Shown here piece after piece: positions 2,891-21,300 of a stretch of 21,300 bases of DNA. The DNA is from a virus. The stretch's first letter is position 1; the number at the start of each line of letters is the position of its first letter. Both the position numbers and the translations under genes were made by a program. The stretch spans positions 1-21,300 of the IMG/VR virus record IMGVR_UViG_3300020056_000198; one strand, given 5' to 3'. Under the pieces are notes generated by a model that saw only the letters and a program-made list of their open reading frames with translations, was not told the origin of the DNA and searched no databases.

Positions 2891-5140
2891 TCAAGATGTG
2901 AAAGAAACTTTTTGTCTCGGCCACGCTCTACCTGAAGTCGGTCTTCGTTTAAATGTTGTTTGTGGACTACCACCTGCGATATATTTACCTGTTCCCATAC
3001 GTACTCCCCATGGAATATGTACTCTTAAAGGTGGTGTTCCATATAATTCTGTTAAATCAGCTCCACCATTTTGATAATCATTATCAGAAATACGATTAAT
3101 ATTACTTGATGAATATAATTTAGATGATGCTATATTAGTAGGAGGATAAACTGCTAGAGGAGTTTGTTTACTTCCTGCTACATTAGAAAAATTAATTCCT
3201 TCACCTTCTTCACCAATTAAATTTTCTTTTGCTGATTTTATCATTAATGCTTTTAATTCTGCAATGCTTGGATAAACTCCGCGTTGTACAAAATACCAAT
3301 CTAAAAATACAGTCGCACAACCTGCTGCAACTGGTGCTGCACAACTTGTACCACTAAAATAACCCCACTTTCCATCACTATATGTAGATGTTGGATAGCT
3401 TGTCCATGTATATGCACCATAAGATGCAAAATCAATCATAGGACCTCTACTACTGTAATCGTCCATTAATCTATTAACGTCGTCTTGTTGACACGCAGCA
3501 ATTGTAAACTGATTGTCTCCACCGTCAATTTCTGACCTTAAAATATAATAGCTTGATTGTGAGCCTTGTGTTGAACTAGTAAATTGATTTCGGCCATCAC
3601 CATCTAAAGTATTTGTTACGTAAGTAGCACCGCTGTCAACTCTTATTGTATTATTCCATCGTGAGTCATCTGGATTTACAGCAACGTGCGCGTTATTACC
3701 TGCACTTTTAAAATGATAAATTCCATTATAGTTATTAAATTGAGACATAACTGTATCAAATGCAGAATATCTTGTTTGGTCAGGAACAGAAATCATCCAT
3801 TTATCAGTACTATCTGCAGGGTCTTCAATAACTCTTGGAATAATTAAGTTATCTACAAATGCTCTATAATCTCCTTGCCAAGAGCTTGTGTCTTTTATAC
3901 ACGAAATATTACCAGTCATAGCTGGATGGAAATCACAAACATAATCATAATTAGTTGTAGCGTCTGGCATTGTAAATGTGACTGTACTTGTTCCTTGACC
4001 ACTTACTCCTGGAACATTACTACCTCCAGTAGTTCTGACATACAATGGATGTCCACCAGAAGCTTGGTTGTCAATAATCACAGTATCTCCTGGATTACAT
4101 ACAATTCCTCTATTATTAATAGCAGAGTTTGCAGATGTTCCTTCGTAAACTCTATCTTCACCAGTAACTTCGTATGCGCTTGCACCTGAAGCTGTCATTG
4201 TGATATTCCAAGTTGCTGCTTGAACATCACCACGATTTATTGTTGTTGAATTACCATCTTCGTCATAAGCTACAATTTGATTGATGCTATCCATTGGATA
4301 GAATTTTTCGTGTTCAACTCCAGAATATCCCCATGCTCCAGTTACAACTGTTGCATTACGAACGCCAGTTGCTGGATTTACAGGTTTACTATTATGCCAT
4401 TGCAATGCTGTATAATAAGCAGTAGTAACACCATCACTAAGATACATAACTCTTAATGTAGATTTTTTACCCCAACCACAATGTTTACCACCTGCTGCGC
4501 TTAATACTCCAATTGCATGAGAACTAAACCAATTAGTATTATTATTCGTAACTTGATTATTACGAGCTGAAGTCATCGAACCAGAAGTTTCGCTCCAATC
4601 CATAGGAATAAATTTAGAATCAGTAGAATCCCATTCTTCAAAATCTACATGGTCTTCGTGACCAGCATTACCTGAAGCCGGGCTACCTGCTTCAATAGCA
4701 ACAATATCTACATATTCTCCTAAAAAATTACTTTTAACTGTGTCATCAAATTGATATTCAGAACCCTGAAAAAAGCCAAAAGGTTGTGTGCCATCAGCCG
4801 GGTCAAATTCACTTGTAAAAAACATATTTAAGCCAGTATGGTCAGCGCCATTACCGCTGCTTGGAATATATCTTGTTCTATATGATACTGTATTACTTTC
4901 GTATCTTGGTGTGGATGTTGGATATGATACTAAATCTACAACATCTCTTTCTGGGCCACATTCAATTACTTTATCGCTTTCAAGTAATTGAGCGCATTCT
5001 TCATCTGTGAGTTTCATGGCAATAATACCATCCCACATATCAAAGTTACAATGAACTTCCATACCAGCTGCTTCATTAGCTAAGAATGAAGCTTCATCTG
5101 TTCCTGGTTGTAGGATTAAATTGTGAATGCGTTTAGACAT
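2891..5140 (-). CDS. Subtilisin-like (S8) virion protein with an inserted cupredoxin domain
   Basis: A 749-aa protein. Residues about 5-65 resemble an I9-type propeptide, with KLTDEECAQLLESDKVIECG. Residues about 140-305 and 420-640 form a split S8-type fold: strand VDIVAIEAG (141-152, where subtilisin has VAVIDSG), SSHAIGVLSAAG (206-217, like HGTHVAG), SAGNN (479-483, oxyanion Asn482) and GTSCAAPVAAG with Ser599. The usual Asp position holds Glu150. In the better register of the His motif the catalytic His position is Phe205, with His208 at the second His, so activity is doubtful. Residues about 306-416 look like a cupredoxin: GDTVIIDN, His364, then VCDFHPAM giving Cys402, His405 and Met408, spaced as in amicyanin (C-x2-H-x2-M). 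The gene starts 4 bp after the fibre gene, probably as one transcript. A virion surface role is likely; T4 has no counterpart that I know of. Confidence 0.75.
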   Translation of the reverse strand: MSKRIHNLILQPGTDEASFLANEAAGMEVHCNFDMWDGIIAMKLTDEECAQLLESDKVIECGPERDVVDLVSYPTSTPRYESNTVSYRTRYIPSSGNGADHTGLNMFFTSEFDPADGTQPFGFFQGSEYQFDDTVKSNFLGEYVDIVAIEAGSPASGNAGHEDHVDFEEWDSTDSKFIPMDWSETSGSMTSARNNQVTNNNTNWFSSHAIGVLSAAGGKHCGWGKKSTLRVMYLSDGVTTAYYTALQWHNSKPVNPATGVRNATVVTGAWGYSGVEHEKFYPMDSINQIVAYDEDGNSTTINRGDVQAATWNITMTASGASAYEVTGEDRVYEGTSANSAINNRGIVCNPGDTVIIDNQASGGHPLYVRTTGGSNVPGVSGQGTSTVTFTMPDATTNYDYVCDFHPAMTGNISCIKDTSSWQGDYRAFVDNLIIPRVIEDPADSTDKWMISVPDQTRYSAFDTVMSQFNNYNGIYHFKSAGNNAHVAVNPDDSRWNNTIRVDSGATYVTNTLDGDGRNQFTSSTQGSQSSYYILRSEIDGGDNQFTIAACQQDDVNRLMDDYSSRGPMIDFASYGAYTWTSYPTSTYSDGKWGYFSGTSCAAPVAAGCATVFLDWYFVQRGVYPSIAELKALMIKSAKENLIGEEGEGINFSNVAGSKQTPLAVYPPTNIASSKLYSSSNINRISDNDYQNGGADLTELYGTPPLRVHIPWGVRMGTGKYIAGGSPQTTFKRRPTSGRAWPRQKVSFTS
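3893..4225 (-). other. Cupredoxin-like domain inside the S8-like protein
   Basis: This codes for residues 306-416 of the S8-like protein. Beta-rich sequence carries the order expected of a type 1 copper site: a strand with GDTVIIDN, a GGHPLYV turn (His364), a TVTFTMPD strand, then DYVCDFHPAMTGNI (Cys402, His405, Met408). It falls between the His and Asn blocks of the protease fold, so it is an insertion and not a terminal fusion. Copper binding is inferred from the ligand set. The domain may be only structural. Confidence 0.7.
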
Positions 5141-11226: not shown

Positions 11227-12803
11227 CTTGGTATTTCTCTTATATCTAAATGGATATGTGTGTCATAAATTACAATATATTTAAATCCACTTTTTAAAGC
11301 ATTATTTGTAAAGACTTCAGTCCAATCTAAACTACCTGGATTTTCTTTAAAAACACTATCCATTTTAATATCTATAACAAGTCCGCCCATGTGAATATCA
11401 TCTTTGGGCCCAGGTGGCTCTAAATTTTCATTATATGTTTTATTTATCCAACCATTAGTAATTATAAACTGAATACCATAAATTGATTGTAATCTTTTTA
11501 AATAAACTTTAACGTCTAAATCTACGTTAGTATATGCTTTTCTGCCTATACCTTCTTTTTCATCAAAAACTTTACCTTGCACTTTCCATTCACTTGCGGA
11601 CCCTTTAAAAACTGCTCCACAAGATGGTAAAGATTCATAATCATCAGCTGTAATTGGTTCAACAATAATTGGTTCTTCACCAGTTGGTGTTAATCTCTTA
11701 ACACCATTTTCACCATTCCAATCCCCTTGTAATCTATTTATGTCATTTCTTCTCTGTTCAGCTGAAAATCTTATAGCTCCATTACGAATTGCTGTTGATG
11801 TATTAGCATTTGAAATTGTTTGAAGTCTTCTAACTATTCTTTCGTAACGATTACCGTAATCATCTAATGGGTTTTTAATTTCATTTATGAGTGCTTCAAT
11901 ATTAGATGCTAGAGCACAGAATCTAAGTACTAAGAATTGAGCTGATTCTAAATCAAGGTTATCAAATAATCCAACTGCATAATTTATAAAGCCTTTGACT
12001 TTATCTTTAATTTTTAGTTTTTCTTCGTCACTTAAATCTTCACACAAACTTTCTTTCACGGTCATAATATATTTTGTATGCTCTTTATCAATAGCTGTAA
12101 CAAAATCTTGTATATGTTCTGAAGGTTTAAAGTTATTAATAGCATCTTCAAGCTTTGCCCAAGCTTCTTCGATAACATTAAATATTTTCTCTTCAACTTC
12201 ATCAATTATTTTTTGAATAATTGCTTGCTGAACAAAAGCTGGAAGACCTTCATAATCTGCACTTAATTTCTTATAAAGATTTTTAGCGTCAGTAATAATT
12301 GCATCAACTTGTCCAATTAAATCATAGAATGAATCAATCTGATTAAACAGATTTTGCATACTCTTACAGAAACCACCTAAAATACTTTCAAATATATCAC
12401 CAGCGTAATATTTGTCTAAGTCATTAAGCAATTTTACTGGTGCTTGATTTAATACTTGATTTGGTGTATAATTAAATGCTTGTATAAAATCTGCAAATTC
12501 AATACTTGTAATATTACCACGTTCCCATCTATTATTTAGTGATGGATAACCTTCAGCACCGTATGAACTTTTAAAAGTTGTATTTAAATACTCGTTTACA
12601 TCATAAAAATTATCGTACTTATTAAATGCAATTGCAACAGGATTAGTTTCACCTTGTTGTAAAATATTTTCAGTAAGGTCTGCAGTAAAAACGTCAATGG
12701 CTGCTAAAGTATATGAGCCATCAGAATTTGTAATAGGACCAGAATTAATAGCTTCTCTATTAATAATTGTTTGACTTCTTTTATCTACGCAAGAACTAGC
12801 CAT
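11223..12803 (-). CDS. Baseplate/tail-associated protein with a C-terminal M15A-like peptidase domain
   Basis: A 526-aa protein. Residues 1-130 are unrecognised. Residues about 135-350 are mostly helical and charged, with likely coiled coil (for example around KIIDEVEEKIFNVIEEAWAK). Residues about 425-526 carry a peptidase M15-type metal site: H471-x2-G-x-V-x-D478 (HMGGLVID) and, near the end, DTHIHLDIRE with His518 as third ligand and Asp520 in the H-x-D pattern of M15A enzymes. Such enzymes cut the peptide part of peptidoglycan. Because gp5 next door lacks its lysozyme domain, this protein may open the cell wall during infection; that is inference. The start overlaps the gp5 stop as TAATG, and the end overlaps gp25 as ATGA. 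The fold call is moderate, and activity is unproven. Confidence 0.65.
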   Translation of the reverse strand: MASSCVDKRSQTIINREAINSGPITNSDGSYTLAAIDVFTADLTENILQQGETNPVAIAFNKYDNFYDVNEYLNTTFKSSYGAEGYPSLNNRWERGNITSIEFADFIQAFNYTPNQVLNQAPVKLLNDLDKYYAGDIFESILGGFCKSMQNLFNQIDSFYDLIGQVDAIITDAKNLYKKLSADYEGLPAFVQQAIIQKIIDEVEEKIFNVIEEAWAKLEDAINNFKPSEHIQDFVTAIDKEHTKYIMTVKESLCEDLSDEEKLKIKDKVKGFINYAVGLFDNLDLESAQFLVLRFCALASNIEALINEIKNPLDDYGNRYERIVRRLQTISNANTSTAIRNGAIRFSAEQRRNDINRLQGDWNGENGVKRLTPTGEEPIIVEPITADDYESLPSCGAVFKGSASEWKVQGKVFDEKEGIGRKAYTNVDLDVKVYLKRLQSIYGIQFIITNGWINKTYNENLEPPGPKDDIHMGGLVIDIKMDSVFKENPGSLDWTEVFTNNALKSGFKYIVIYDTHIHLDIREIPR

Positions 12804-14602
12804 TAGGTTTCACCTGCTTCCGTTGCTAAAGATATTATTTCTTGTGTAAACGCATTTTGAGATTCGTCTTGGTCACTACAGAATCCTATTGAATGTCCCT
12901 TAGCATTATAGATATTATCTTTTGTATACACGTTATAAGTTGGAGGCTCAGGCATTTGAGCTCTTGTAATACCTAATCCGCCTTGCGGTAACACGTTAAT
13001 ATCAAATCCAAAAACTGAGAATGGTGATGTTAATACTGATGCTATGAAACCAGGGCCATTTCCATTTGGATACGCAACACCTGAAACTTGACCTGGAACA
13101 AATGAAGGTATAGCTAAGCTTATTGCTGGAATAGTAATTGGTGGTATCGTTGGAATAGCTGGTACAGTTGGAAGTGTCATAATACGACCTGGTCCAGGCA
13201 GACAAGTGCCACCGCCCGATGGTGCAATAGGTGGAGGTGCTGCAAGAATTGTTGTATTAACAGCCTTTGCTGTAATAGCAGTTGCATTTAATGCTAGTCC
13301 ACAATTTATAGTTGGTGCTGTTAACACACCAAAATTACCAGTTGTAGCATTAACTAATCCATTAATACCCACTACTGTTGGAATAGCAGTTGGTATTGTA
13401 TCTGTACTAAACCCACCAATATTAACAAAAGGTGCATTAATATTAAATCCGCCTACTGGATTTACAGTAGCACTACCAGTAACACCAGGCACAGGTGGAG
13501 CTAAACCTTTAGCTGTATTAATAATTTGTCCGAAAGAATATAAATGAATATCACCTGCTGCAGAAAAACGAACTGCTTTATTTGCATAAGCACTGAATGT
13601 TAATAATGCAGTATTTTTAATATGACCTGAAACAGAATTGATTTGTTTTTCAGATTCCATTTTAATATTATTTCTACCAAATATAGTAACATCTTCGGCA
13701 TTACCTTCGAGTTTAAGATTTGCGCCTCTAACATGTGCTGTCAAACCAGCATTATGATAAGAGTTACCACCAACTGCAACTTCGTGTTCACCGTGTACTA
13801 TCTGCTTGTAATTACCATAGATTTCTTCTGTTTTATTACCATTAACATAAACATGAGAATTACCGTTAATCGTAACTACTGAATGACCTGATGATTCGTG
13901 TTTAGTACCAATATTAATTTCGTAACGATCGCCTTGAGCTCTTTCTGTAACACTACCTTTAGAATCAATCTGGATATATGCGCCAGAGCCATGAGTAATT
14001 TGAATACGTTCTGCACCTGGCGTATCATCAATTTCAATACTATGTCGCGCAGTTTCTATAACTCTATTATATGGATATTTCGCAGCGTAAGCTGGTGACG
14101 GTTCGTCCCAAGTTTCTTCAGAGTCTGCAATCTTTTGATTTTGTTTTGAATTAGTATATTGTTTAGCTAAATATGTTTCATCTAAATATTCAGCACGAGC
14201 AAGTCGAGAATTTTGAGGTTGACCAATATCTCTTGGTGAACTACCCTGTGCTAATAGCTCTCCGTCATAAGGAGGAGTGACTCCCCACCTTGCTTCTGTG
14301 GGTTTGTGTTTTTCTACATATTGGCCCGGTACTAATCCAAGTATCAATGGATGTTGACCTTCATCACCGTCTGTAAACATTCCAAACACAAAAGAGTTTA
14401 AAGGTGGTGGTGGATTATTAGGGTCAAAATTACCAGCTACACAAATTGCCCAAGGTAATGCTTTAGTTGGAATTTCTTCTTCTGTATTTTCACCGTGAAC
14501 ACCAAAGGCACGAACTTGCACCCGACCTTGAAATGTTGGGTCAACATTATTTTCTACTACCCCAATGAAAAACATTGGTTGTTTTATTCCCATTCCTCTC
14601 AT
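12803..14602 (-). CDS. 5: gp5-like baseplate central spike, without a lysozyme domain
   Basis: gp5 sits under the gp27 hub and forms the membrane-piercing spike. Residues about 9-95 are the OB fold: FFIGVVENNVDPTFQGRVQV, IPTKALPWAICV and HPLILGLVPG parallel T4 WFVGVVEDRMDPLKLGRVRV, IPTEKLPW and GIVLGTYGG. T4 then has a lysozyme domain, but here a short linker (about 96-170) leads straight to YPYNRVIETARHSIEIDDTP (176-195), which matches T4 YPYNHVKETESGHIFEIDDTP, and to the beta-helical needle (about 200-360) with GN/NGN repeats. Residues 370-599 are extra: hydrophobic, rich in Pro, Ile, Gly and Ala (for example the TLPTVPAIPTIPPITIPAI run at about 476-494), possibly a tip or partner-binding region. 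The TAATG start is coupled to the hub gene. Confidence 0.88.
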   Translation of the reverse strand: MRGMGIKQPMFFIGVVENNVDPTFQGRVQVRAFGVHGENTEEEIPTKALPWAICVAGNFDPNNPPPPLNSFVFGMFTDGDEGQHPLILGLVPGQYVEKHKPTEARWGVTPPYDGELLAQGSSPRDIGQPQNSRLARAEYLDETYLAKQYTNSKQNQKIADSEETWDEPSPAYAAKYPYNRVIETARHSIEIDDTPGAERIQITHGSGAYIQIDSKGSVTERAQGDRYEINIGTKHESSGHSVVTINGNSHVYVNGNKTEEIYGNYKQIVHGEHEVAVGGNSYHNAGLTAHVRGANLKLEGNAEDVTIFGRNNIKMESEKQINSVSGHIKNTALLTFSAYANKAVRFSAAGDIHLYSFGQIINTAKGLAPPVPGVTGSATVNPVGGFNINAPFVNIGGFSTDTIPTAIPTVVGINGLVNATTGNFGVLTAPTINCGLALNATAITAKAVNTTILAAPPPIAPSGGGTCLPGPGRIMTLPTVPAIPTIPPITIPAISLAIPSFVPGQVSGVAYPNGNGPGFIASVLTSPFSVFGFDINVLPQGGLGITRAQMPEPPTYNVYTKDNIYNAKGHSIGFCSDQDESQNAFTQEIISLATEAGET

Positions 14603-18932: not shown

Positions 18933-19820
18933 ATGTCTTTTAGTATTAGTAAATTTAAAACAACTTTTGATAAGTATGGTGGTCCTGCTCGTCCTAACTT
19001 GTTTGAAGTTATTATTTCTAAACCACAAGAACCAAACTCTAATATTGACCCAACAAGAGAATTTTCGTTTTTCTGTAACAGTGTAAACTTTCCAGGTATT
19101 GGAGTCGAAACAGGTCAATTCACAGCTGTATCACAACTGACTACAACATTTCCATTAAGAATGCAAGGTCAACCTATCAGTGCTAATTTTATGCTTGATA
19201 GTAATCATCAAATACTTTCTTTTTTCCACAATTGGATGCAAAGAGTTATGAATTATAGTACAAAGGGTGGTCCTTATGCTTCTATAGATGACCAAGGAGA
19301 AGGAAATCCCGTTGGAATGTTACCATACGAGCTTGGTTATAAAGATGATTATGGATGCAGAATGATTATTCGTCATTATTCAACTGAGTCTTTTGGAAAA
19401 GAAGATAAGTATTATGAAGTTACTATGGAAAACGTATTTCCAACAACAATTCAAGATGTTGCTTTGGATTGGGGTAATAATGACCAACTTATGATATTAC
19501 CAGTATCGTTTGCTTATGACCGTATTTGGTATTCCAATGACAGAACAGGTAATCCATCTGTACGAACAGGTGGCGGATTTCTTGACACTTTATCTGATTT
19601 AGCTAAATTTGTTGATGTAACAAAACAAACAATAAATCAAGGTAAAATTACAAGTATACAAGACGCAATTAACAGATTAAATAGAGTTAGAAATTCTTAC
19701 GATAATTTATCTAGTTTCTTTACACCACAAGAAACAGCTGAAGGAAGTAAAGAAAATAAACCAGCAAAAGACCCAGGTAAGACATATACTCCTACCGGTA
19801 CGGATTTTGTTGACCAATAA
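18933..19820 (+). CDS. Tail-tube-fold protein, probably the gp54-like tube initiator
   Basis: A 295-aa protein. The N-terminal 200 residues look like the gp19/gp54 tail-tube fold: a SKFKTTFDKYGGPARPNLFE start, FSFFCNSVNFPGIGVET, LRMQGQPISANFMLDSNHQI, a LSFFHNWMQRVMN helix, YYEVTMENVFPTTIQDVALD and LMILPVSFAYDRIWY. T4 gp19 is 163 aa and gp54 is 320 aa, so the length and the neighbouring baseplate genes favour gp54, which binds gp48 and begins the tube. The last 80 residues are polar, Lys/Pro-rich and probably disordered. A true gp19 tube protein with an extension is the alternative. GAGG before the ATG is the ribosome site; only 2 bp separate it from the gene before. Confidence 0.7.
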   Translation: MSFSISKFKTTFDKYGGPARPNLFEVIISKPQEPNSNIDPTREFSFFCNSVNFPGIGVETGQFTAVSQLTTTFPLRMQGQPISANFMLDSNHQILSFFHNWMQRVMNYSTKGGPYASIDDQGEGNPVGMLPYELGYKDDYGCRMIIRHYSTESFGKEDKYYEVTMENVFPTTIQDVALDWGNNDQLMILPVSFAYDRIWYSNDRTGNPSVRTGGGFLDTLSDLAKFVDVTKQTINQGKITSIQDAINRLNRVRNSYDNLSSFFTPQETAEGSKENKPAKDPGKTYTPTGTDFVDQ

Positions 19821-19850: not shown

Positions 19851-20552
19851 ATGGCATTGCCAAAAATTGATATTCCGATACAGGAACTTACAATTCCTTC
19901 ATCGGGTGAAAAAATAAAATATAGGCCTTTTACAGTAAAAGAAGAAAAGATTCTTTTAGTAGGCCAAGAAAATAATGACGCGACAGCTCAAGTATTAGCT
20001 GCAAAGCAGGTTGTTAATAATTGTTTAATTGATTACGATGTTAGTAACCTTGCAATGTTTGACCTTGAATATGTAATATTATATTTAAGAGCAAGAAGTA
20101 TTAATAATGTTATAGAATTTTCAATTATAGATGAAGAAACTGAAGAGCGTGTATCAGTTGAAATTGATATTGATGAAGTTCAAATCGTTAGAAATGACGA
20201 ACACACTAATGAAATAATAATTAATGATGATTATAGGTTATTCTTAAAATATCCTACTATTGATGAATTTGCTAAGTTAACGACTATGAACCCAGATGAC
20301 CCGTTAACAGATTATGTGATGTTAACTTCTTGTATTGATTACTTAGCATCTGACGATGAAGTACATTATTTTAAAGATTATAAACAAGAAGAAGTTGATG
20401 ATTTTATGGAATCATTAACTACAAAAACGGTTAAAAGTATTGCGACCTTTTTTGAAACTATGCCTAAATTAAAGCACGAAATAAAATATACTAATTCAAA
20501 AGGTAATGATAAAACTATAGTTGTGGAGGGCCTACAAACTTTTTTTACTTGA
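19851..20552 (+). CDS. 26: gp26-like baseplate hub/tail chaperone protein
   Basis: A 233-aa protein of the T4 gp26 type. Its start (MALPKIDIPIQELTIPSSGE, then KIKYRPFTVKEEKILLVGQE) and FDLEYVILYLRARSI are strong family marks. T4 gp26 is needed for hub formation but is scarce in virions, which fits an assembly role. A clear AGGAGA lies 8 nt before the ATG in a 30-bp gap. The end is unusual: the last codons run over seven T (20540-20546), four bases before the TGA, and the gp51 frame lies at -1. A share of ribosomes may therefore shift and make a 294-aa gp26-gp51 fusion. The gp51 ATG also overlaps the stop as TGATG, allowing simple re-initiation. Confidence 0.88.
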   Translation: MALPKIDIPIQELTIPSSGEKIKYRPFTVKEEKILLVGQENNDATAQVLAAKQVVNNCLIDYDVSNLAMFDLEYVILYLRARSINNVIEFSIIDEETEERVSVEIDIDEVQIVRNDEHTNEIIINDDYRLFLKYPTIDEFAKLTTMNPDDPLTDYVMLTSCIDYLASDDEVHYFKDYKQEEVDDFMESLTTKTVKSIATFFETMPKLKHEIKYTNSKGNDKTIVVEGLQTFFT

Positions 20553-20609
20553 TGCTGAGCCACATGAGCCTACAAGATTATTACCAAATAATTTTTAGTA
20601 TGGCCCAGC
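20540..20609 (+). promoter_or_regulatory. Candidate programmed -1 frameshift signal (gp26 to gp51)
   Basis: In the gp26 frame the bases read ACT TTT TTT ACT TGA, giving a perfect X XXY YYZ slip site, T TTT TTT (20540-20546). After a 7-nt spacer, GCTGAGCCA (20554-20562) can pair with TGGCCCAGC (20601-20609): eight of nine pairs, one A-C mismatch, 38-nt loop. Slip site, spacer and stem are in the usual arrangement for bacterial and phage -1 shifts. The shifted frame continues Tyr-Leu-Met-Leu-Ser-His into gp51 and stays open to 20734. Confidence 0.65.
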
Positions 20610-20734
20610 ACCATAAGTATTCAATCTCTGAAATTGAAAATTTATTGCCATACGAAAGAGATTTATATTTTGATATGTTAGTACAGCATATAAAAGAACA
20701 GAACGATAAAATAGAACAAGCTAGAAACGGATAA
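20552..20734 (+). CDS. 51: gp51-like baseplate hub assembly protein
   Basis: A 60-aa protein with SLQDYYQIIFSMAQHHKYSI followed by SEIENLLPYERDLYFDMLVQ, the pattern of T4-like gp51 (aromatic DYY, HHK, then an E-N-L-P-E-R/W-Y helix). The same layout is seen in the 'T' part of tail assembly chaperones. T4 gp51 is needed for hub assembly but is not a virion part. The ATG at 20552 shares its A with the gp26 stop (TGATG); a TTG three bases earlier is an alternative, and no independent Shine-Dalgarno is evident. It may thus be made by re-initiation, as the tail of a -1 frameshift product, or both. The last codon is followed by only 6 bp before the next gene. Confidence 0.82.
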   Translation: MLSHMSLQDYYQIIFSMAQHHKYSISEIENLLPYERDLYFDMLVQHIKEQNDKIEQARNG

Positions 20735-20740
20735 AACTAA

Positions 20741-21300
20741 ATGGCTACCAATTTAGAAGACATTAGAAAACGACTGATACGAGAAGGCGAGCTTGTGCGT
20801 AATGATGGCGCACATTCTATAAAATCTGTAAAAGAAGTTTTAACAGACCAACTTAAGCCAGCGCTTGAGGCGATGTCTGCTTCTATGGCTGGATTTAAAG
20901 GTGGTTTAGAAAAACAAACAAAGCTTGAAAAATTACGCGATGAAAAACAATATAAGCTTGAACAATTTAATAGTGATGAAGAACGTAAGGCATATGAAAA
21001 ACAACACGCAGAGCAAATAAAACTAGAGCAACAAATTGCAACTGAAGATGCTAAGCAAAAAAGAAAAGACCAAATAGAAGCTCAACGAAAAGATATTAAA
21101 ATATTTGGTAAAGATGGTGTTTTAGCAAGTACTATAAAGAAAACATTTACTATTATCGGAAGAACTTTAATGTTTGGAATTATAGGCGCCGTTGGTTATG
21201 AAGTTTTAGCGGGAGCAGCTGAAGCTTTAATTCCAAAATTCTTTGGTAGAGATGTAAATCTACCGACTATATTTGAAGGATTTGAAAAAGCAGGCCAAGC
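20741..21300 (+). CDS. Probable tape-measure/hub protein, N-terminal 186 residues only
   Basis: The frame opens at ATG 20741 (MATNLEDIRKRLIREGELVR) and is still open at the window end. Residues about 54-125 are highly charged and rich in Glu, Lys and Gln (for example RKAYEKQHAEQIKLEQQIAT), a strong coiled-coil candidate. Residues about 131-155 are hydrophobic (TFTIIGRTLMFGIIGAVGYE and an Ala-rich follow-on) and could form a membrane or pore segment. Tail chaperones directly followed by a long coiled-coil protein with hydrophobic segments is the standard place for a tape measure, which in T4 is gp29. The sequence itself was not recognised as gp29, so the name rests on position and composition. 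Confidence 0.6.
   Translation, partial: MATNLEDIRKRLIREGELVRNDGAHSIKSVKEVLTDQLKPALEAMSASMAGFKGGLEKQTKLEKLRDEKQYKLEQFNSDEERKAYEKQHAEQIKLEQQIATEDAKQKRKDQIEAQRKDIKIFGKDGVLASTIKKTFTIIGRTLMFGIIGAVGYEVLAGAAEALIPKFFGRDVNLPTIFEGFEKAGQ

Follow-up and report, generated by a model that had tools for sequence, protein, structure and literature searches.

In phage lambda, the short chaperone gpG and its -1 frameshifted long form gpGT act on the tape measure protein, and a 2016 review described the G-T frameshift as widespread in long-tailed phages 'except T4' (PMC5009743). Tail assembly chaperone genes of T4-like phages were identified by Vladimirov, Gautam and Davidson (2022, Virology 566:9-15), as stated in passages of two papers that cite them (PMC12846349, PMC10885494). 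The first of these passages describes poly-T -1 slip signals as known in T4-like TAC-N genes, and the second reports that some T4-like phages have a separate short copy and a long fusion copy instead. A poly-T type -1 slip (GTTTTT) also ends TAC-N in phage Adele, which belongs to other phage families (Vandenendeviridae/Andersonviridae), and the downstream ORF at that locus is likewise usually annotated as a separate gene (PMC12846349). T4 gp51 itself was listed in a 2010 review as essential and of unknown function (PMC3004832). The phage studied here shares the gene family and the poly-T -1 slip with the T4-like chaperones of the 2022 study, as far as the citing passages describe them, and differs from them in being an uncultivated marine relative.

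The window, by which we mean the whole 21.3-kb virus record analysed, carries its baseplate genes on the minus strand, and the plus strand encodes head closure, DNA end protector, tail tube, gp26 and gp51, after which a large gene begins. The tail tube homologue (18933-19820, plus strand; phrog_45 tail tube, E 7.5e-38) lies just upstream of gp26, a placement that is part of the usual tube-chaperone-tape order. The gene that begins downstream (20741-21300, plus strand) is a candidate tape measure protein by its position, size and coiled-coil-like N-terminal sequence. Its full length is 640 aa in a near-identical locus (L001:3891-5813), and the full-length sequence had no PHROG match; the gene in the same slot of Pelagibacter phage HTVC008M matches tape measure families.

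Two minus-strand genes elsewhere in the window encode proteins with protease or peptidase family matches. The 749-aa tail-fibre-like virion protein at 2891-5140 (phrog_15006, E 2.6e-50) combines a subtilase-like GTSCAAP motif and a match to a protease family (phrog_3677, E 5.9e-7) with a possible copper-site domain, a cupredoxin-like stretch at about residues 307-412 that ends in VCDFHPAM (phrog_9158; amicyanin just E 0.69). The 526-aa protein at 11223-12803 matches a peptidase family (phrog_25247, E 1.7e-7), and its C-terminus is H-x-H-x-D-like. Its gene adjoins the gp5-like hub gene (12803-14602), for which Pfam gave no lysozyme domain, and this peptidase-like protein may replace the tail lysozyme.

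The gp26 homologue (19851-20552, plus strand), the proposed short chaperone form (TAC-N), matched Pfam PF12322 T4_baseplate over residues 12-232 (E 3.2e-53) and phrog_150 (E 1.1e-58) in profile searches. Its ORF ends in ACT TTT TTT ACT TGA, with the slippery heptamer T TTT TTT in register at 20540-20546, three bases before the zero-frame stop TGA (20550-20552), the position of which is kept in relatives. A 7-nt spacer (20547-20553) leads from the slip to a downstream stem whose 5' arm GCTGAGCCA (20554-20562) and 3' arm TGGCCCAGC (20601-20609) pair at 8 of 9 positions with a single A-C mismatch. The -1 frame is free of stops from about position 20513 onwards and closes with the TAA at 20732-20734. 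Within it lies gp51 (20546-20734, plus strand), the proposed C-terminal domain of the long form (TAC-NC), which comprises 62 residues after the slip, and the predicted slip product would be of 232 + 62 = 294 aa, with LQTFF joined to YLMLSHM at the junction. A sequence-only reading of this DNA had proposed the seven T before the gp26 stop, the 7-nt spacer with a one-mismatch stem, the -1 frame open from upstream of the gp51 ATG and the 294-aa fusion; all four were borne out, the fusion as a predicted product.

The gp51 extension matched phrog_634, baseplate hub assembly catalyst, at profile positions 59-116 of 121 (E 5.9e-24). Since it also matched weakly the C-terminal end of the phrog_150 profile (positions 240-281, E 0.025), the searches suggest that some members of the gp26 family have both parts within one protein. 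Upstream of the slip by 9 nt, a Shine-Dalgarno-like GGAGGG (20525-20530, plus strand) is a candidate frameshift stimulator. The -1 signal of Escherichia coli dnaX consists of an upstream Shine-Dalgarno-like stretch, a homopolymer slip and a downstream stem. The same three elements stand in the same layout in the window, with the difference that the dnaX slip is poly-A and that of the window poly-T, and that a role of the Shine-Dalgarno-like stretch in the window is only suggested.

We consider it very probable that gp26 and gp51 are one frameshift gene in which a minority slip gives the 294-aa long form. Most ribosomes would end at 20550 and release gp26, the short form, and a minority would slip back by one base on T TTT TTT and continue into gp51, with help from the stem that lies 7 nt further on and perhaps also from the upstream Shine-Dalgarno-like stretch. 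The comparisons below show the site, its phase, the stem, their conservation and the absence of a gp51 start in many relatives, whereas the slip in the cell, its rate and the chaperone role are inferred. By analogy with lambda gpG/gpGT, the slip sequence of which is different, the short form would coat the product of the next gene, the tape measure protein, and the long form, which is rarer, would use its C-terminal extension to bring in subunits of the tail tube; the virion would contain neither form. The chaperone role is proposed from the order of the genes, the logic of their domains and the literature. When the gp26 model (pLDDT 82.8) was searched with Foldseek, the HK97 tail chaperone gp13 (2OB9) came at rank 5, which was not significant (E 1.8, probability 0.30), and the gp26 profile found no convincing match among the sequences of solved structures.

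To compare the junction among close relatives, 80 IMG/VR loci were fetched, which gave 49 distinct junctions once near-copies were removed. All 80 have X-TTT-TTY-NNN-stop at the end of gp26 and an open -1 frame for gp51. The heptamer of the distinct junctions was T TTT TTT in 41, T TTT TTC in 7 and G TTT TTT in 1, and the stop stood at the same place in each of them as TAA (25), TAG (20) or TGA (4). The sequence-only reading had suggested that aligned gp26 ends would reveal a conserved slip heptamer and synonymous-site conservation, and both were found (T TTT TTY in 48/49; codon-identity ratio 3.19). It had also named as contrary outcomes relatives without a slippery run and with gp51 in no fixed frame or separated from gp26; the opposite was found, as the close relatives retain the slip, the -1 phase and the stem.

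The phage is AT-rich, and T4 conserves the Phe-Phe pair as amino acids without using the site, so that a functionless T run might arise by chance from a T-rich genome and a Phe-Phe at the end of gp26. The codons speak otherwise. The first Phe codon is TTT in 49/49 junctions, as compared with TTT:TTC of 389:121 elsewhere in gp26, and the codon before Phe-Phe, be it for Ser, Thr or Ala, has T as its last base in 48/49. The column of this codon has the highest codon-identity ratio of gp26 (3.19; mean 1.06, sd 0.22); these measures of synonymous bias ignore shared ancestry and have as internal control the remaining conserved Phe columns in these sequences. Besides, phase, spacing and stem occur together, and T4-group phages with Phe-Phe use TTC TTT. 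By these comparisons of relatives a chance origin is already refuted, and we give it practically no credence. A bias is also seen upstream, where a conserved Glu-Gly codon pair, some 9 nt from the slip, is GAAGGT in just 1/49 as against 87/205 elsewhere (Fisher 2e-9, kinship ignored) and gives AAGGA or GAGGG rather than the weaker GAAGGT, a choice compatible with a Shine-Dalgarno-like stimulator.

The downstream stem was conserved too. When 20547-20625 of the window was folded alone, none of 200 shuffles was as stable (z = -3.55). In 48/49 relatives this 9-bp stem occupies the same position with no more than one mismatch; it ranks first among the 5356 possible 9-bp helices of the region and is predicted by RNAalifold unprompted. 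Its positions pair in 95.4% of cells as compared with 23-46% with slid partners, and cells with double changes numbered 11 against 3.8 +/- 1.5 in shuffles (0/500). Most relatives have U-A, U-G, A-U or G-C as the central pair, whose 3' base is the third base of a codon for Ala or Val, and the lineage of the window carries a fixed mismatch (A-C or A-A) at this middle pair. On the tree, covariation of the central pair agrees in direction, with one independent case on well-supported branches and no significance. The recurrence of slip, phase and stem position over the 49 distinct relatives, together with the shuffle result, is confirmed as more than chance. A single close relative (L048) has a broken stem (5/9 pairs) with slip and -1 frame intact. 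A pseudoknot between the loop and downstream sequence was considered and rejected, the best 5-bp candidate being fully paired in just 39% of relatives.

The position of this stem also bears on transcriptional slippage, in which the polymerase would slip on the T run and mRNAs of altered length would encode the fusion. The homopolymer run that such slippage requires is present; however, many relatives have just six T (T TTT TTC), which is short for polymerase slippage, and a conserved stem 6-7 nt downstream suits ribosomes and not polymerase. We regard this route as highly improbable, and a shift by the ribosome remains the preferred reading of the junction.

Another route to gp51 would be translational coupling. 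The ATG of gp51 at 20552 overlaps the gp26 stop by one base (TGATG, 20550-20554), and a ribosome might re-start there after the TGA to yield a separate 60-aa gp51; because of this overlap, re-initiation is possible in this one phage. The codon at this position in the 49 relatives is ATG in 22, GTG in 8, ACG in 7, GCG in 11 and GGC in 1, that is, ATG or GTG in 30/49, and P-SSM2-type cyanophages retain an ATG shortly after the stop. Against coupling, 16/49 relatives lack a usable start close to the junction, with no ATG, GTG or TTG in the -1 frame between the upstream stop and +14, and as no start codon is nearby, gp51 would hardly be readable in them except by shifting. On the gp26 tree a start was gained or lost at least 11 times, and the protein sequence around the start position is conserved throughout. 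Since the start codon varies or is lost where the surrounding protein sequence is kept, the comparison argues strongly that gp51 of the close-relative clade is an extension and not a separate gene, although the window phage retains its ATG. The constraint on the slippery bases beyond the amino acids, the conserved stem at frameshift distance and the occurrence of the same domain in T4 inside a longer protein with a gp26-like part also stand against coupling, which we consider improbable, though less so than slippage of the polymerase. The reading of gp26 and gp51 as one gene joined by a frameshift is the one followed below.

The slip and the -1 phase were also found in phages of Synechococcus (ACG-2014d), Prochlorococcus (P-SSM2), Pelagibacter (HTVC008M), Sinorhizobium (phiM7), Caulobacter (Cr30), Vibrio (K575 and EniLVp02) and Stenotrophomonas (Bhz51). 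P-SSM2-type cyanophages have T TTT TTC in 57/57 distinct junctions, followed after 6 nt by a different hairpin of 10 bp; its positions pair in 91.5% as compared with 23-42% when slid, and its double-change count was not above shuffles (122/500). Scans of IMG/VR gave 6 loci with T4 gp26 and 0 loci with Vibrio K575 gp26. In the annotated records that were examined gp51 is entered as a separate gene or missed, and none of the public records opened has a joined frameshift feature. In L082 (KJ019048) and public records gp51 was separate or missed, being 'none' or hypothetical in several of the matches listed among 567. We lean slightly towards a more specific statement for the marine clade, namely that gp51 may be no protein of its own but solely the tail of the long chaperone, produced through a composite signal of a Shine-Dalgarno-like stretch, a poly-T slip and a lineage-specific stem 6-7 nt downstream. 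Only the slip would be common to the lineages, the stem differing among them, and hundreds of public gp51 gene records would be misannotated.

T4 provides the contrast. Its gp26 and gp51 both match the gp26 family, as does gp26 of the window, but they are two genes on opposite strands without slippery codons, and the long form has a gene of its own. T4 gp26 matches phrog_150 with E 6.7e-71, and T4 gp51, of 249 aa, matches the same family across residues 3-248 (E 2.6e-84), its C-terminal part matching the gp51 family also. Because its whole length matches the gp26 family, T4 gp51 corresponds to the long form, made from a second gene. Profile searches were needed for this comparison, since BLASTP of the virtual fusion against T4 gp51 aligned just the C-terminal part (E 0.005). 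T4 and a Klebsiella relative keep Phe-Phe as non-slippery TTC TTT, and T4-group phages thereby act as the expected natural control, in which Phe-Phe persists where slippery codons do not. The abstract of the study by Vladimirov et al. in 2022 reportedly states that frameshifting is conserved in several T4-like groups and that the group of T4 uses separate genes, with which our comparison agrees. The earlier proposal that T4-like gp26 and gp51 are a frameshift pair is thus upheld for the close relatives, cyanophages and other T4-like phages and fails for T4 itself, where the codons are TTC TTT and gp51 is a separate 249-aa protein.

The sequence-only reading had further expected to join the baseplate 'hub assembly catalysts' to the tail chaperone family. 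This link is not new, having been drawn by Vladimirov et al. (2022) as the citing passages present it. By the same passages, the frameshift principle for T4-like chaperones was published in 2022, and the window adds a further member and firmer evidence. The covarying stem, the repeated loss of the gp51 start and the Shine-Dalgarno-like element are possibly unreported before. On the frameshift reading, the 'baseplate hub' and 'hub assembly catalyst' genes would become one frameshift gene in a common marine phage group, and the contrast between slippery codons kept with the gp51 extension and lost with the separate long gene of T4 makes the role of T4 gp51 testable.
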